A stretch of 42,082 bases of DNA from an uncultured bacterium (GTDB lineage: Bacteria; Verrucomicrobiota; Kiritimatiellia; CAIKKV01; CAIJXV01): positions 1-42,082 of the forward strand of contig CAIJXV010000031.1 in the NCBI GenBank assembly GCA_903824675.1, written 5' to 3'. The position numbers and the translations under genes are program-made. Every line of letters begins with the position of its first letter. Position 1 is the first letter of the stretch. This document shows positions 33,669 through 39,347 of this stretch, in pieces. Under the pieces are notes generated by a model. The model had not been told where the DNA came from. It saw nothing but the letters and a program-made list of their open reading frames with translations, and ran no database searches.

Positions 33669-33814
33669 AGATTTTACCTCAAGTGCTCGGATGTGAATGG
33701 GCGTCCATTGTAAGCCCGGAAACAGGCACGGGTCAACGGAGTTTACAGGGTTTGAGGAATTCCAGCCGGACAAGGAACATCCCCGGAAAGATAGGTCTTG
33801 AGCTTTACCTCAAA

Positions 33815-35344
33815 ATGTCATTCAATCCGGCCATGTTCGTCATTGATTGTCACTCTTTTTGGGGAAAACGGGTTGCGTCAGATCCCCGTTACACCCCTGA
33901 CGCCCTGCGCGAAAACCTCACCCGCCACTCGGTGGCCGTCACATTCGCCTTCAGCCAGCGCGGACTCGATTATGACAGCCGCACCGCCAATCGCGAGGTG
34001 CTCGCCGTCCGCCAGGAAACCCCTTGGGTCCAGCCCATCGCCGTCCTCAACCCCCGCGACGCCCCCGGCTTTGAAGCCGAATTCGAATTCTGCCGCGACG
34101 CCGGCATCCACGCCTTCCGTTTTTTTCCCGGCTCGCAAAATTGGTCGGTTCAATCCACCCTCTTCCGCCGCCAGCTCAAGCTCATCAGCGGATCTCCTTC
34201 CGTCCTGATGTTCTCCTCCATCGATTCCTATACCGGTTGGGAAATCCCTTCCCAAATCGCCGCCGTAACTGCGGATCTCGGAGTGCCGGTTATTTTCGTC
34301 GACACCTTCTACGCCAATATGTTCGAAGTCCTCTCCACTTTGCGCGAGTTCCCCCATACCTATATCGAAACCAACAGTCTGGCCACTACCGACGCCCTTG
34401 ATACGGTCGTCGGGGAAGTGGGACCCGCTCGCGTCCTCTATGGGTCCAGCGCCCCTCTCCGGCCCATGCAAAAGGCCCTCAACCAGATTCTCGATGCCCG
34501 CCTTCCCACCGCCGATAAAGCCGCGATTCTCGGCGGCAATGCGGCGCGCCTCTTTCATCTCGATCCCACCCTCTGGACCGGGCGGCCCACGCTGACGAAC
34601 GATCAACCGGCGCGATTTGACGAGCCCGCCATCGACGTCCATTCCCATCTCGGGTACTGGCAACGCCCCCCTTACGAGGATTATACCCCCGACGGCATGC
34701 TGCGCCGGATGAAACAATTCAATATTCGTACCGGCATTGTCTCCGCCTACGAAAGCATGCGATATGATATCGCCGCCGGAAATCGTGCGATCGCCGCCGC
34801 CATCGAAGGGCATCCTGAGCTCAAGGGCTGTGTCGAACTCAACCCTCATCAGCTCGAGCTTTCCTGCGACGAAATGGACCGCTATTTCGCCCAACCGAAT
34901 TTCGTCGGCGTTGAGATCGAACTCTCTCATATCCCGGCGCCAACCGCCGGACCCCAGGTCAAAAAACTGATCGAAGCCATCGCCCGCCGGGGCAAGCCCA
35001 TCCTCTTCCTCCCCGCCGGCGGGGGTGATGCCCTGGCCGAGCGCGACCTGGCCCGGGCCCACCCCCACCTCGCCTTCATTCACGCGCATGGCTTTGATCC
35101 CGACTGGGCCCGCATCGTCGCCGACACCCCCAACATCCATGTTGAATTTTGCCTCAGCCGCCCCAGTCATCATCACCTGCGCGAATGCCTCGATATCCTC
35201 GGCCCGGAACGCATTCTTTTTGGCACCGATCAAACCCTTCTCAGTGTCGCCTCCCAGGTCGGCCTGTATCTCGACGCCGATCTTTCTCCCCGGGAGCGCC
35301 GCTTGATTTTGCACGATAACGCCTGCCGCCTTTACCACCTCTAA
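33815..35344 (+). CDS. Tandem amidohydrolase: degenerate domain fused to a canonical domain
   Basis: A 509-residue protein made of two amidohydrolase-2 domains. Domain 2 (about 272-509) keeps the motifs: IDVHSH (His276, His278), FIHAHG (His423/425), ILFGTDQT (Asp472). Domain 1 (about 8-250) reads IDCHSF at the first motif (second His replaced by Phe15) and VLYGSSAP at the last (Asp replaced by Ser212). Both end alike (GGNAARLFHL, HDNACRLYHL). Domain 1 therefore probably no longer binds metal and may serve in dimer formation or regulation. ATG 33815 or 33833 could be the start; neither has a good ribosome site. The stop lies 16 bases before the next gene. Confidence 0.8.
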   Translation: MSFNPAMFVIDCHSFWGKRVASDPRYTPDALRENLTRHSVAVTFAFSQRGLDYDSRTANREVLAVRQETPWVQPIAVLNPRDAPGFEAEFEFCRDAGIHAFRFFPGSQNWSVQSTLFRRQLKLISGSPSVLMFSSIDSYTGWEIPSQIAAVTADLGVPVIFVDTFYANMFEVLSTLREFPHTYIETNSLATTDALDTVVGEVGPARVLYGSSAPLRPMQKALNQILDARLPTADKAAILGGNAARLFHLDPTLWTGRPTLTNDQPARFDEPAIDVHSHLGYWQRPPYEDYTPDGMLRRMKQFNIRTGIVSAYESMRYDIAAGNRAIAAAIEGHPELKGCVELNPHQLELSCDEMDRYFAQPNFVGVEIELSHIPAPTAGPQVKKLIEAIARRGKPILFLPAGGGDALAERDLARAHPHLAFIHAHGFDPDWARIVADTPNIHVEFCLSRPSHHHLRECLDILGPERILFGTDQTLLSVASQVGLYLDADLSPRERRLILHDNACRLYHL

Positions 35345-35360
35345 CCCCGGATTCTCTCTC

Positions 35361-36716
35361 ATGCCCGCAAAATCAAAACCCGCTCCGCGGTCTGCGCCTT
35401 GGACCGTCGGGTTCGCCCTTGCCGATATCACCCCTCCCCTGGGTACCCACCTTTTTGGATTCGGCGGCCGCGACCGCGGCCCGGGCTGTGAAGCCATTCA
35501 TGATCCCCTCCAGGTCCGTGCGGTTTGGATCGCCGTCAAAAAAGAACCGGTCCTCATCCTGGCCTACGATGTGCTCTTTTTTGACCGTGCCGAGGCCGAT
35601 CGCATCAAGGGTGCCGTCGGCCGGGCACTGGATCTGACCCCCCGCCAAATCCTGATCAATTGCTCCCATACCCATATCGGGCCGGTTACCGGAACCTGGG
35701 CCTATGCCAATTATGAGCCGCTCAAAAATCGGGTCTATCTCGACGACCTCGTCTCCGCCACGATTCAGGCCGCCCTCGCGGCCCGGGATACCGCCCGGCC
35801 AGCCCGCCTCCGTTTCGGCAAAACCCGCTCCATCCTGCCGGTCAGTCGCCGCTTCATTACGACCGAAGGCAAGGTCGAATGGCGACCGGCCCCCGCCATT
35901 CCCATTTACAATGCGCTACCCGTTGTGGCGTTTGACGATCCCCTGACGAATTCGCCGATCGCCTTGATCTTCACCGTGGCCTGCCACCCGTCCACCACCG
36001 GCGGGGTCCAGATCTCCGCCGATTATCCCGGGGTCGCCCGGGACACGATCGATCGCGCCATCGGCCGACCGGTCTCCGTTTTCCTCCAGGGGGTCGGGGG
36101 CGACACCAAACCCTGCGTGGTGGCCAATGGCCCCACCGACGACACTGGTCGAAGCTCATGGCGATCAGGTACTTGGGAGGATATCCGCCAGGCCGGGGAA
36201 ATCGTCGCCGATGCGGTTCTCAAGATCCTCCCCCAATTGAAACCCATCCCGGATCCCCTCATTCAATCCGAGATCCGGGAGGCCACCCTTCCCCTGACAT
36301 CCATCCCCACCCAGGCAGAACTCGAACGGCTCCGATCGTCGCCGGAACCCCTGCATGATCTGCGACGCCTCTGGGTGACCCGCCAATTGGAATTGCTCGC
36401 CGCCTATGGCACTCTCTCCCCGGTTGCCCCCATCTTGATCCAGTCCATCCGCCTGTCGAAATCGCTCCGGTTCGTCGCGCTGGAAGGCGAACCGGTTGCC
36501 GCCTGGGGTTGGGCCATTGAGAAGACGTTCCGATCCGCCGGGGTCGCCATTCCCCTCGGGTACAGCAATGGGCAGGGCCTTTATTTGCCGGTCGAATCCA
36601 ACCTCGTCGAGGGCGGGTACGAGGTGGAAAGCGCCTATGAATACGGTTTTTCAGGGCAACAACTGGCCCCGGGGTTTTCTCAACCCCTCTTCGCCGCTTT
36701 GAAAAGCTTGAAATAA
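35361..36716 (+). CDS. Neutral/alkaline ceramidase-like hydrolase (N-terminal domain type)
   Basis: A 451-residue protein resembling the N-terminal domain of neutral ceramidase (PF04734): VGFALADITPPLGTHLFGFGGR near the start, NCSHTHIGP (His103, His105, zinc-binding), and FLQGVGGDTKP, the counterpart of the family QGxxGDxxP. Unlike secreted ceramidases it has no signal peptide and lacks the C-terminal Ig-like domain. PVC bacteria carry many such short versions beside sugar-catabolism genes, where a sphingolipid substrate is doubtful. It is probably co-transcribed with the tandem amidohydrolase, 16 bases upstream. Confidence 0.78.
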   Translation: MPAKSKPAPRSAPWTVGFALADITPPLGTHLFGFGGRDRGPGCEAIHDPLQVRAVWIAVKKEPVLILAYDVLFFDRAEADRIKGAVGRALDLTPRQILINCSHTHIGPVTGTWAYANYEPLKNRVYLDDLVSATIQAALAARDTARPARLRFGKTRSILPVSRRFITTEGKVEWRPAPAIPIYNALPVVAFDDPLTNSPIALIFTVACHPSTTGGVQISADYPGVARDTIDRAIGRPVSVFLQGVGGDTKPCVVANGPTDDTGRSSWRSGTWEDIRQAGEIVADAVLKILPQLKPIPDPLIQSEIREATLPLTSIPTQAELERLRSSPEPLHDLRRLWVTRQLELLAAYGTLSPVAPILIQSIRLSKSLRFVALEGEPVAAWGWAIEKTFRSAGVAIPLGYSNGQGLYLPVESNLVEGGYEVESAYEYGFSGQQLAPGFSQPLFAALKSLK

Positions 36717-36746: not shown

Positions 36747-37430
36747 ATGGATTTCAAACAATGGAGCCGATCGATGTCGCTCGTCTCCCGCGGCGTCCGC
36801 AACCAGTTTGCCGTTGCCATCGTCCTCATGTCGCTGATTCCCCTCGCGCTCCTCGTCTTTCTGATCGTCGAGGTCATTCCCAATAACTCCCTGCCGACCG
36901 ATGCGCTGAACCTGATCGCCCTCTGGGCCTTTGTCCTGGCCTTTTTGGGTTGGCGACTCCTGGTTAAATACCCCATCAACATCATCCGCTTACGCCGGTA
37001 TCTCGATGCCCTGGCCAAAGGCGAGATCCCCCGCCAGATCAATATCGAAAAAGGGGAAAGCGATCTCTTCGCCATTGAACAAAACATGAACCGGATTATC
37101 CTGCAAACGGAAGAACGGATTCACACCCTCGAAAATCACATGCAGATTCTTCTGGAAACGGAACGCCAGCGCGTCCTCCTCGAAAGCCTCGGCGCCGCCT
37201 GCCATCACCTCGGCCAACCGACCACCGTTCTGGTCACCTCACTCCAGATCATGAAAAATCAAGACCTCTCCCCCGACCTGCGCGAAATGGTCGAGGCCTG
37301 TGCTCACTCATCCCACGAGATCATGGAAATCCTCCACAAACTCCAAGGCATCTCGGTCTACAAAACAGAACCCTATTTAACATCCGACACCACCCACGAT
37401 CCCAGCAAGGACCGGATCCTCAAGATTTAG
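36747..37430 (+). CDS. Membrane-anchored phospho-acceptor (DHp-like) protein without ATPase domain
   Basis: A 227-residue protein: two membrane helices (about 20-42 and 54-73), a HAMP-like linker with a coiled coil (NMNRIILQTEERIHTLENHM), then a histidine-kinase dimerisation helix ERQRVLLESLGAACHHLG followed by QPTTVLVTSLQI. The first His of CHH (His153) sits five residues before Pro, where kinases have the phosphorylated His (H-E-x-x-x-P). The protein ends about 75 residues later, so there is no HATPase domain. ATG 36747 (AAGGA upstream) is preferred to 36732. Its end overlaps the convergent REC-DHp gene by four bases. It may be a phosphotransfer or scaffold protein. Confidence 0.65.
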   Translation: MDFKQWSRSMSLVSRGVRNQFAVAIVLMSLIPLALLVFLIVEVIPNNSLPTDALNLIALWAFVLAFLGWRLLVKYPINIIRLRRYLDALAKGEIPRQINIEKGESDLFAIEQNMNRIILQTEERIHTLENHMQILLETERQRVLLESLGAACHHLGQPTTVLVTSLQIMKNQDLSPDLREMVEACAHSSHEIMEILHKLQGISVYKTEPYLTSDTTHDPSKDRILKI

Positions 37431-38158
37431 CCCGATTCCTCGCCCGGAATCCGGACGATATTCACTTCCGTTTTGCCCGGTTCCGATTGGAGATACACCT
37501 CCGCTTGATATTCGTGGATCTCCTGCAGATGCTGGACCATCAAATTCAACTTTTTCAGCGCCTGATCACACTCCGCCAACATCGCTTTCAGTTCATCCGG
37601 CCGATTCTCCGTCTCCAGTTGCTTCTCGACGATCCGCAGGAAAATCCCCAGCACCGTCAGCGGCTGACTGAAATGGTGGCAGACCGCCCCGAAACTTTCC
37701 ATCATGACCCGTTGGCGCTCCGCCTGTAAAAGCTTTTCGCTCTGCTGGGCGAGGATGTTCTTCAGCTCCCGGGTCTTTTGGGCGTTTAAAAAAGCCCGGT
37801 GCAGGGTTTCCCGGGATAACTGCCCCTTGACCAGGTAATCCAGCGCCCCCTGTTTCATCGCATCCACCGCGATCTGCTCACTGCCCATTCCGGTCACCAA
37901 AATCACCGGCATATCGGGCCATTTCGCCACAATCTTCGGCAACCATTCCAATCCGGTCCCGCCGCTCATCAGGTAATCGAGAAATACGCAGTCCACCGGA
38001 TGTGTTTCCAGAATTTTCATCGCCTGTTCACCGTCATTCGCCTGCAGAACACGGCAGGGACAATCCCGTCGTAAAACATGAAAAAGTCGGGCCATATTAT
38101 CCCGACAGATCAGGTCGTCATCCACGATCAAAACCGTCGGTTCAGGCATTTCGCTCAT
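37427..38158 (-). CDS. Response regulator receiver fused to a DHp-like helix, no ATPase domain
   Basis: A 243-residue protein. Receiver domain 8-125: Asp13/14, phospho-acceptor Asp61 (VFLDYLMSGG), Thr89 and Lys111. A long helix (130-150) leads to ERQRVMMESFGAVCHHFS followed by QPLTVLGIFLRI (His161 the probable acceptor) and a second helix (QALKKLNLMVQHLQEIHEY). The motif matches the membrane protein encoded opposite. No N, G1 or G2 ATP-binding box follows. ATG 38158 has GGAGG upstream and overlaps the REC-HDOD gene by 17 bases, so the three minus-strand genes form one coupled unit. Confidence 0.75.
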   Translation of the reverse strand: MSEMPEPTVLIVDDDLICRDNMARLFHVLRRDCPCRVLQANDGEQAMKILETHPVDCVFLDYLMSGGTGLEWLPKIVAKWPDMPVILVTGMGSEQIAVDAMKQGALDYLVKGQLSRETLHRAFLNAQKTRELKNILAQQSEKLLQAERQRVMMESFGAVCHHFSQPLTVLGIFLRIVEKQLETENRPDELKAMLAECDQALKKLNLMVQHLQEIHEYQAEVYLQSEPGKTEVNIVRIPGEESG

Positions 38159-39347
38159 TCGTATATTCCTCCCCCTCGCTGGACCGCATTCCACGAGTCC
38201 AAAGCTCCTGGCATCGTCGAACCCATTCGTTCCCTATAGAGGATCCGGCAAAAGCCCCGGTTATTTCCAGCCTTTGATTCAGCGGTAAATACAATCCTTC
38301 ACCGCAGGCCTGCGGCATCTGCCCGGCCAGTTCATGTCCGCCCTGCACGGCGCTTAAGGTCGCATTTTCGCGAGAATCGGTCACGGGTTCATGGATGCCC
38401 CGAATGACACCCCGCAATTCCTTTGGAAATCCCCACAAGGCTAAAAAATAATCGCCCGCCAAAACGCCGAGCCCTCCCCGCCCATCCTGCGTCCCCCCGG
38501 CGGGCAAACCATCGGCGCCCATCAGATCGCCCAGATCATGAAGCAGTCCGGCCAGGTAGACTAATCCGGTCGTCGACCGGTCCAACTCCGCCCGTTCTGC
38601 AATCCCCCGGGCACACCGGGCGGTCATCAGACTATGCCGCGCCCAAGCCTCCAACTCCGGCGAGTCTGGAACCCCTTCGCAAAATATCGGCATTTCACCC
38701 AGGGATCGGAGTCGATCCACACCCACACGGGCAACGGCATCAGCCGGATCCGTTACGAGGGTCCGTCCGTGCCCGTAAACCGAATTACTCAATTGGACCA
38801 CGCGCACGGTCATCGCCGGATCCGCTCCCATGATTTGCCCCAATTCGTCGGATGAAATCGACGGACGGTCCAAGGCCGCCCGGAGTTGTTCCATGCGCCC
38901 GGATGGGCTCGGCAGACGTTCAATCCGGCCAATCCGACGACACTCATCGTCGCGTCCCAGCCGTCGACGAGGTTCCAGGGTGCGCTCCACCGTCTCAATC
39001 AATTCCTCGGGCAGGCAGGGCTTGACCAAAAATTGATGCGTCGTCCTCACGGCGCGCAAAATCATTCCCGGATCGGAATGCCCCGTCAGAATCAGACGGA
39101 CCACTTCCGGATGCCGTCGGCGGACTTCCTGCATCAGGGCCGCCCCATCGATCCCCGGCATCTGCATATCCGACACAATCACATCCGTCGGCCCTTCCGC
39201 CAGCCGGGACAACGCCTCCTCTCCCCCGGTCGCGAACACCATCGACCACCCCTTATTCTGACGGTGCAAAACACGTTCCAAGCCTTTTAAGACATGCGCT
39301 TCATCATCCACAAATAAGACTCGAACCGGATCCCTGAGCCGGGTCAT
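38142..39347 (-). CDS. Response regulator with HDOD output domain
   Basis: A 401-residue protein: receiver domain 8-125 with Asp14/15, Asp60 (VIVSDMQMPG), Thr88 (LTGH) and Lys109 (LVKP), followed by an HDOD domain (about 145-340; LAGLLHDLGDLM with His270-Asp271 retained). HDOD proteins are related to HD hydrolases but usually act as signalling modules, for example in motility, stress or cyclic-di-GMP pathways. The start overlaps the kinase stop as ATGA, so this is the likely direct partner of that kinase. Confidence 0.88.
   Translation of the reverse strand: MTRLRDPVRVLFVDDEAHVLKGLERVLHRQNKGWSMVFATGGEEALSRLAEGPTDVIVSDMQMPGIDGAALMQEVRRRHPEVVRLILTGHSDPGMILRAVRTTHQFLVKPCLPEELIETVERTLEPRRRLGRDDECRRIGRIERLPSPSGRMEQLRAALDRPSISSDELGQIMGADPAMTVRVVQLSNSVYGHGRTLVTDPADAVARVGVDRLRSLGEMPIFCEGVPDSPELEAWARHSLMTARCARGIAERAELDRSTTGLVYLAGLLHDLGDLMGADGLPAGGTQDGRGGLGVLAGDYFLALWGFPKELRGVIRGIHEPVTDSRENATLSAVQGGHELAGQMPQACGEGLYLPLNQRLEITGAFAGSSIGNEWVRRCQELWTRGMRSSEGEEYTNERNA

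Follow-up and report, generated by a model that had tools for sequence, protein, structure and literature searches.

We identified a family of bacterial signalling proteins that end in a DHp-like module with a CHHxxQP box and have no kinase ATPase domain after it. Two members are encoded side by side in the window, by which we mean the whole stretch of DNA that was analysed (42,082 nucleotides). Judging from profile comparisons and structure models, the CHH module is a DHp-type domain, so divergent in the two window proteins that they fall short of the Pfam cut-off. We would give about even odds to the proposal that in these proteins a kinase-dead DHp module, gated by a sensor, exchanges phosphate with receivers, in the manner of ChpT, Spo0B or PhyT.

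The membrane protein P0001 is encoded on the forward strand (36747..37430) and consists of two TM helices, a HAMP-like linker, a DHp-like CHH module (ERQRVLLESLGAACHHLGQPTTVL...YKTEPYL, 37161..37379) and a C-terminal tail ending RILKI. P0002, on the reverse strand (37427..38158), is a receiver domain (Pfam E 2.6e-23) fused to a CHH module (ERQRVMMESFGAVCHHFSQPLTVL...YQAEVYL, 37490..37720, reverse strand). The two genes are convergent and their tails overlap by 4 bases (37427-37430), and the coordinates, strands and shared CHH helix reported in the sequence-only reading are correct; the helix reads ESLGAACHHLGQPTTVL in P0001 and ESFGAVCHHFSQPLTVL in P0002. The candidate phospho-accepting histidine of P0001 is residue 153 (codon 37203-37205, forward strand). 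In P0002, the CHH histidine is His161 (codon 37676-37678, reverse strand) and the receiver aspartate is Asp61 (codon 37976-37978, reverse strand). Each protein ends in its module of about 73 amino acids, and when the genome that carries the window was searched, the two modules matched each other with E = 3e-10; their resemblance is therefore beyond chance. A third CHH paralogue in this genome, on contig C55, has the architecture PAS-PAS-CHH. Just upstream of P0001 and on the same strand (33683-36716) are an amidohydrolase gene and a gene for a 451-amino-acid protein without a Pfam match, and P0001 may for this reason share a transcript with metabolic genes and not with the kinase.

A Pfam scan found HATPase_c in neither P0001 nor P0002 and detected it in the neighbouring PAS kinase, in agreement with what had been read from the sequence. 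Both proteins match HisKA (PF00512) below threshold (E 0.0019 and 0.046; 18.7 and 14.2 bits, where the cut-off is 26.9), and a REC-CHH homologue in locus L131 reaches E 6e-6 and 26.6 bits. The first histidine of CHH falls on HisKA profile position 11, as does the phospho-accepting histidine of a canonical kinase in L078, and the earlier claim that it is spaced as in a kinase H-box is thus borne out. The module shares with HisKA this position, the proline at +5 and a two-helix hairpin. However, it lacks the ATPase domain and has histidine in place of the acid at +1, and the window members and singly inspected homologues score below the curated cut-off. Among the 80 family members described below, 43 have a HisKA match at E<0.01, which in some may come from the extra N-terminal DHp domain of the long proteins. 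The Hpt profile (PF01627) matches neither P0001 nor P0002, nor is it among the 25 families listed for the scan of the 80 members. A PDB sequence search with the module profile gave weak matches only (the best, at E 0.04, apparently due to chance); they include ChpT and kinases at E about 0.06-0.4.

Structures were predicted as single chains. In the model of P0001 (pLDDT 82.4, poor in the tail), helices 51-90 and 105-170 are separated by a 14-residue connector placed as HAMP expects. The HAMP-like linker proposed from the sequence is weakly matched by profile (HAMP_2 E 0.085) and agrees with these two predicted helices and their connector. The best structural matches of this model in the PDB are the DHp domains of CpxA, ERS1 and GacS, with weak E-values (0.05-0.5). 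In the model of P0002 (pLDDT 91.7) the receiver is followed by two helices, the first of them long, and by a pair of short strands at the C terminus; the predicted two-helix hairpin is formed by helices 116-183 and 188-212.

Of 97 genomes searched, namely the one with the window and 96 relatives, 48 had a match to the module, the weakest of these matches being ordinary kinases. From 47 related genomes, 80 proteins were fetched, selected by overall similarity and not by motif. The module is C-terminal or nearly so in all 80 (median of 17 amino acids after it), and an HATPase domain follows it in none, although such a downstream domain had been named as the sign that the window proteins are truncations. 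A truncation or assembly artefact is ruled out by the C-terminal, ATPase-less module of 80 proteins in 47 genomes. The sole long C-terminal extension, in L141, runs into a receiver domain and not an ATPase. HATPase matches occur in seven of the 80 and fit degenerate ATPase remnants upstream of the module in long proteins. After the module comes a tail of about 17 residues with a conserved Y-T-Y...RILDI-like end.

The box itself is nearly invariant: cysteine at -1 in 78 of the 80, the histidine (H0) in 79, histidine at +1 in 77, glutamine at +4 in 79 and proline at +5 in all 80. The conservation of the histidine on which the sequence-only reading depended is thereby confirmed. Counts over a set of 117 modules agree with these, with the qualification that the larger set is biased because part of its rows came from a motif-based scan and were picked by the motif itself. 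Cysteine at -1 and histidine at +1 are unusual and not required by phosphotransfer, and one could read the Cys-His-His as a site for redox chemistry, metal or haem, which would make the module a sensor or output device instead of a phosphate carrier. However, H0, Q+4 and P+5 keep the HisKA H-box spacing, the cysteine is missing from a sister family in which H0 and Q+4 are conserved, and by our own reasoning the Cys -1/His +1 arrangement is unlike an obvious helical metal site. We regard such a site as very improbable, the least probable of the readings considered here.

This sister family, from the same class (LMHNINQPLTV type), also lacks the ATPase domain, has PAS input and shares the tail (L229:585-1286, L230:3138-4052, L232:3398-4642, L233:3590-4960, L235:2805-4085 and L237:124-1461). 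It keeps H0, Q+4 and, with one exception, the proline, and its +1 residue is N, H, T, S or E; such variability is what one would expect after a loss of autokinase activity. Several of its proteins run straight on into an HD-GYP-type domain. In another class of the phylum, L228:1835-2497 encodes a REC-DHp protein without ATPase that has an HELRQP box and the same EYRTxxY...RIVDL tail, which suggests the tail as the mark of a broader group of DHp proteins without ATPase. A Deltaproteobacterial HisKA-only family may have a similar tail. The window's own genome also contains HisKA matches with no HATPase_c match nearby among those listed (G000:C119:13554-13718, in L219, G000:C34:1413-1592 and G000:C37:22543-22728), which may be other ATPase-less proteins or have divergent ATPases.

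The residue at H+1 bears directly on function. In tested HisKA kinases an acid at this position is strictly required for autokinase activity and dispensable for phosphatase activity, which needs the residue at +4 (T or N) (PMC3510030). Canonical HisKA domains of the same genome (30 fetched) mostly have E or D at +1, with one Q and a few without a clean match, whereas the CHH members have histidine in 77 of 80. Direct phosphorylation in trans is less likely because this acid is replaced, and these residues suggest that a receiver is a more likely phosphate donor to CHH than a kinase ATPase domain. The proposal that DHp modules are phosphorylated in trans therefore stands as regards an ATPase-less DHp module with a conserved histidine, and is less well supported as regards a kinase ATPase domain as direct donor.

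The same residues bring in the main rival to phosphate exchange, in which CHH proteins are signal-gated response-regulator phosphatases that use the glutamine at +4 as catalytic amide. Their kinase-dead DHp domains would then strip phosphate from receivers upon engagement of the sensor. An amide is present there in 79 of 80 members, the lost +1 acid is the residue that phosphatase activity can do without (PMC3510030), sensor domains are kept as in regulated phosphatases, and Galperin et al. suggested the same role for archaeal HisKA-only proteins (PMC5847659). However, glutamine at +4 was not among the residues tested in PMC3510030, a phosphatase has no need for such strict conservation of the phospho-accepting histidine, and Hpt-less hybrid kinases beside some TM-CHH genes call for a histidine intermediate. 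The phosphatase reading fits the fixed glutamine and the sensors almost as well as phosphate exchange does, and the data do not separate the two; we consider it a serious possibility, with perhaps one chance in four of being correct.

CHH modules occur in four main architectures: TM2-HAMP-CHH, REC-CHH, PAS-PAS-CHH and REC/pseudokinase-TM-CHH. The set of unique modules (n = 117) includes 60 of the PAS, 25 of the TM, 16 of the REC and 15 of the long-TM type, and receiver fusions are known in both orders, CHH-REC and REC-CHH. A kinase is encoded within four genes of 12 of the 16 REC-CHH genes, in contrast to 2 of the 60 PAS-CHH genes (Fisher p 5e-9, with rows that are not phylogenetically independent). 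PAS-CHH proteins, the largest class, are mostly orphans with no kinase nearby. Most of them, L037:5114-6289 included, carry a conserved N-terminal peptide (TMRIDIxPD-like) before the PAS domains, which is possibly a docking or localisation tag.

The REC-CHH genes belong to a recurrent cassette. Five loci (L066, L069, L050, L118 and L131) encode, one after the other, a kinase, a REC-HDOD protein, a further REC protein (378-391 amino acids) and REC-CHH; in L102 these members are ordered differently. By Pfam this further REC protein is REC-HD_5 (HD-GYP type) in L066 and L102, the two that were scanned. The window carries this cassette minus the HD-GYP gene. Adjoining P0002 on the same strand are P0003 (38142..39347, reverse strand), a REC-HDOD response regulator that overlaps P0002 by 17 bases (38142-38158), and P0004 (39344..40960, reverse strand), a full PAS-PAS-HisKA-HATPase histidine kinase of the AHEINSPIQYVGDN subfamily that overlaps P0003 by 4 bases (39344-39347); these overlaps support the coupled unit proposed earlier. 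The cassette kinases are mostly of the P0004 subfamily (38-53% identity over the core), and their own DHp domains are intact.

With a full kinase two genes from P0002 and kinases near most REC-CHH genes, the ATPase domain of P0004 or of another kinase might phosphorylate the CHH histidine in trans, possibly in mixed dimers, the two parts forming a split kinase. Against this, the cassette kinases have DHp domains themselves, CHH lacks the +1 acid on which autokinase activity depends in the HisKA domains tested (PMC3510030), and in the REC and TM loci that were looked at no stand-alone ATPase gene was recognised beside CHH, on which ground a neighbouring ATPase was rejected as the missing half. 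Eight long proteins (in L038, L040, L041, L044, L047, L048, L054 and L065) also speak against a split kinase: they have a pseudokinase core upstream of the TM-HAMP-CHH unit in which the kinase histidine is replaced by arginine and the N box is gone, and CHH is kept. The HATPase match in these proteins was considered as a fused kinase and rejected on inspection of the arginine and the missing N box. The fusions thus lack ATPase signature boxes, and we judge a split kinase unlikely. In L039:6001-7749 a REC and an HD-GYP-type stretch lie upstream of TM-HAMP-CHH, which places a c-di-GMP-type output in the same chain.

Phosphate exchange between receivers fits the fixed histidine, the lost +1 acid, receiver fusions on either side of the module and the hybrid-kinase loci. 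The eight pseudokinase fusions, which retain CHH after losing the kinase histidine and N box, also speak for it. At L046, L058 and L061 the TM-CHH genes adjoin a hybrid kinase and a NarL/GerE regulator, both with the phospho-accepting aspartate; Pfam finds REC and no Hpt domain in the hybrid kinases of L046 and L061. The long-TM gene of L078 adjoins a REC-HisKA-HATPase-REC kinase. In the mechanism that we propose, the CHH module would be a dimeric HisKA-type DHp domain whose ATPase partner and autokinase residue are gone for good and whose phospho-accepting histidine is kept. Sensor input (membrane/HAMP, receiver or PAS) would gate phosphoryl uptake from one receiver, either the C-terminal REC of a hybrid kinase or a fused REC, and CHH would pass the phosphoryl group to another receiver. 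In the window, P0004 would phosphorylate the REC of P0002, whose CHH module would exchange phosphate with the REC-HDOD protein P0003 or another receiver, and P0001 would provide a membrane phosphotransfer input or branch. We infer that the modules dimerise and transfer phosphate, as we do the direction of flow and their partners.

The phosphorelay role suggested by the sequence-only reading fits this gene context. However, the kinase of a REC-CHH cassette could phosphorylate all the receivers itself, in which case a relay is not required; a passive Hpt would not normally carry sensor domains, which suit a signal-gated phosphatase as well; the PAS-CHH class is mostly orphan; and the window's own genome has three ordinary Hpt domains.

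The arrangement of P0001 and P0002 had also suggested that the two modules pair as heterodimers. Two CHH genes occur together only in the window among about 160 loci, and the architectural classes are mostly apart. In a module tree (few columns, rough support) the modules group by architecture, P0001 and P0002 are not sisters and P0002 is on a long branch. A P0001:P0002 heterodimer is thus unsupported, since no other locus pairs CHH genes and the tree does not join the two. A recent tandem duplication was rejected because the modules cluster by architecture and the pair are not sisters.

RetS and GacS are both complete kinases. Their DHp domains, from different proteins, pair with each other (PDB 7n0e, a structural match of the P0001 model), and CHH proteins could likewise act as decoys or scaffolds that form heterodimers with a kinase DHp domain or with each other, inhibiting or rewiring signalling as RetS does to GacS. 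Of the CHH loci compared, however, only the window has the convergent pair, and its modules are not sisters. A decoy has no need of a fixed histidine, cysteine and glutamine either, and the earlier suggestion of a decoy or scaffold leaves the fixed histidine in particular unexplained; we consider it improbable.

A scan of 84,980 species genomes gave 126 motif matches, leading to 97 relatives. The labels of the 80 listed include Kiritimatiellae, Pontiellaceae, Lentisphaerae and Verrucomicrobia, and among them is the isolate Pontiella sulfatireligans, which has a TM-CHH gene (L150); by record label alone, a few MAG contigs belong to Victivallis vadensis, Akkermansia muciniphila or Spartobacteria. 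Across 388 sampled genomes of the phylum, nearly every strong match comes from the window's class, with one outside (G345), and about half of the related genomes sampled carry the CHH family. Viral contigs yielded five pattern matches and no relatives. A plasmid search outside the phylum with the L113 protein gave weak matches, and the one inspected sits in a protein of about 508 amino acids annotated as a response regulator. With the L228 protein, a plasmid search returned thousands of weakly similar records; most of those listed bear the annotation of an ordinary response regulator or hybrid kinase.

ChpT lacks a sensor domain, and Spo0B is a kinase-derived phosphotransferase that acts between receivers and has a residual C-terminal domain. 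Like the CHH proteins as we read them, ChpT of Caulobacter has a DHp hairpin with a phosphate-shuttling histidine (His33) and a proline at +5 (Pro38), has no autokinase activity and works with receivers (PMC3433190, where Spo0B is also cited). However, ChpT keeps a degenerate Bergerat ATPase-fold domain (PMC3433190), whereas the CHH proteins have none and only the tail of about 17 residues. PhyT (PMC5898713) is similarly a kinase-derived phosphotransferase between receivers that is membrane-anchored and sensor-like; it differs in its degenerated ATPase domain and HRxxN-type H-box.

Proteins with HisKA and no HATPase have been catalogued in archaea, along with REC-HisKA regulators, and phosphotransfer or phosphatase roles proposed for them (Galperin et al. 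2018, PMC5847659); P2CS has a class for HisKA-only proteins, termed 'phosphotransfer proteins' (PMC2716373). The archaeal proteins share with the CHH family a sensor or REC domain followed by a C-terminal HisKA with a conserved histidine and no HATPase (PMC5847659). In contrast to them, the CHH family is bacterial and class-wide, and is marked by the CHHxxQP box, a +1 position without the acid, the Y-T-Y...RILDI tail and a gene cassette that recurs. Within the library covered, a literature search found no paper on the bacterial CHH family, which we regard as a new, well-defined bacterial family of a kind already catalogued in archaea.

Our tentative view, which we think has something under one chance in three of being right, is that Kiritimatiellota-type bacteria possess, as a layer peculiar to their class, DHp phosphotransferases that are kinase-dead and gated by signals. 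These would have an H-box chemistry of their own (Cys -1, His +1 and Gln +4), with sensing placed at the phosphotransfer step and not at the kinase, and with fusions to c-di-GMP-type outputs. The family offers a clean, testable case for HisKA without HATPase, namely whether a lone DHp domain relays phosphate or removes it. Sensing proteins of this kind, which are unable to use ATP, usually go unnoticed or receive a histidine kinase annotation. If the proposal is true, sensors would act on the phosphate-exchange step, and input would be integrated downstream of the kinase.
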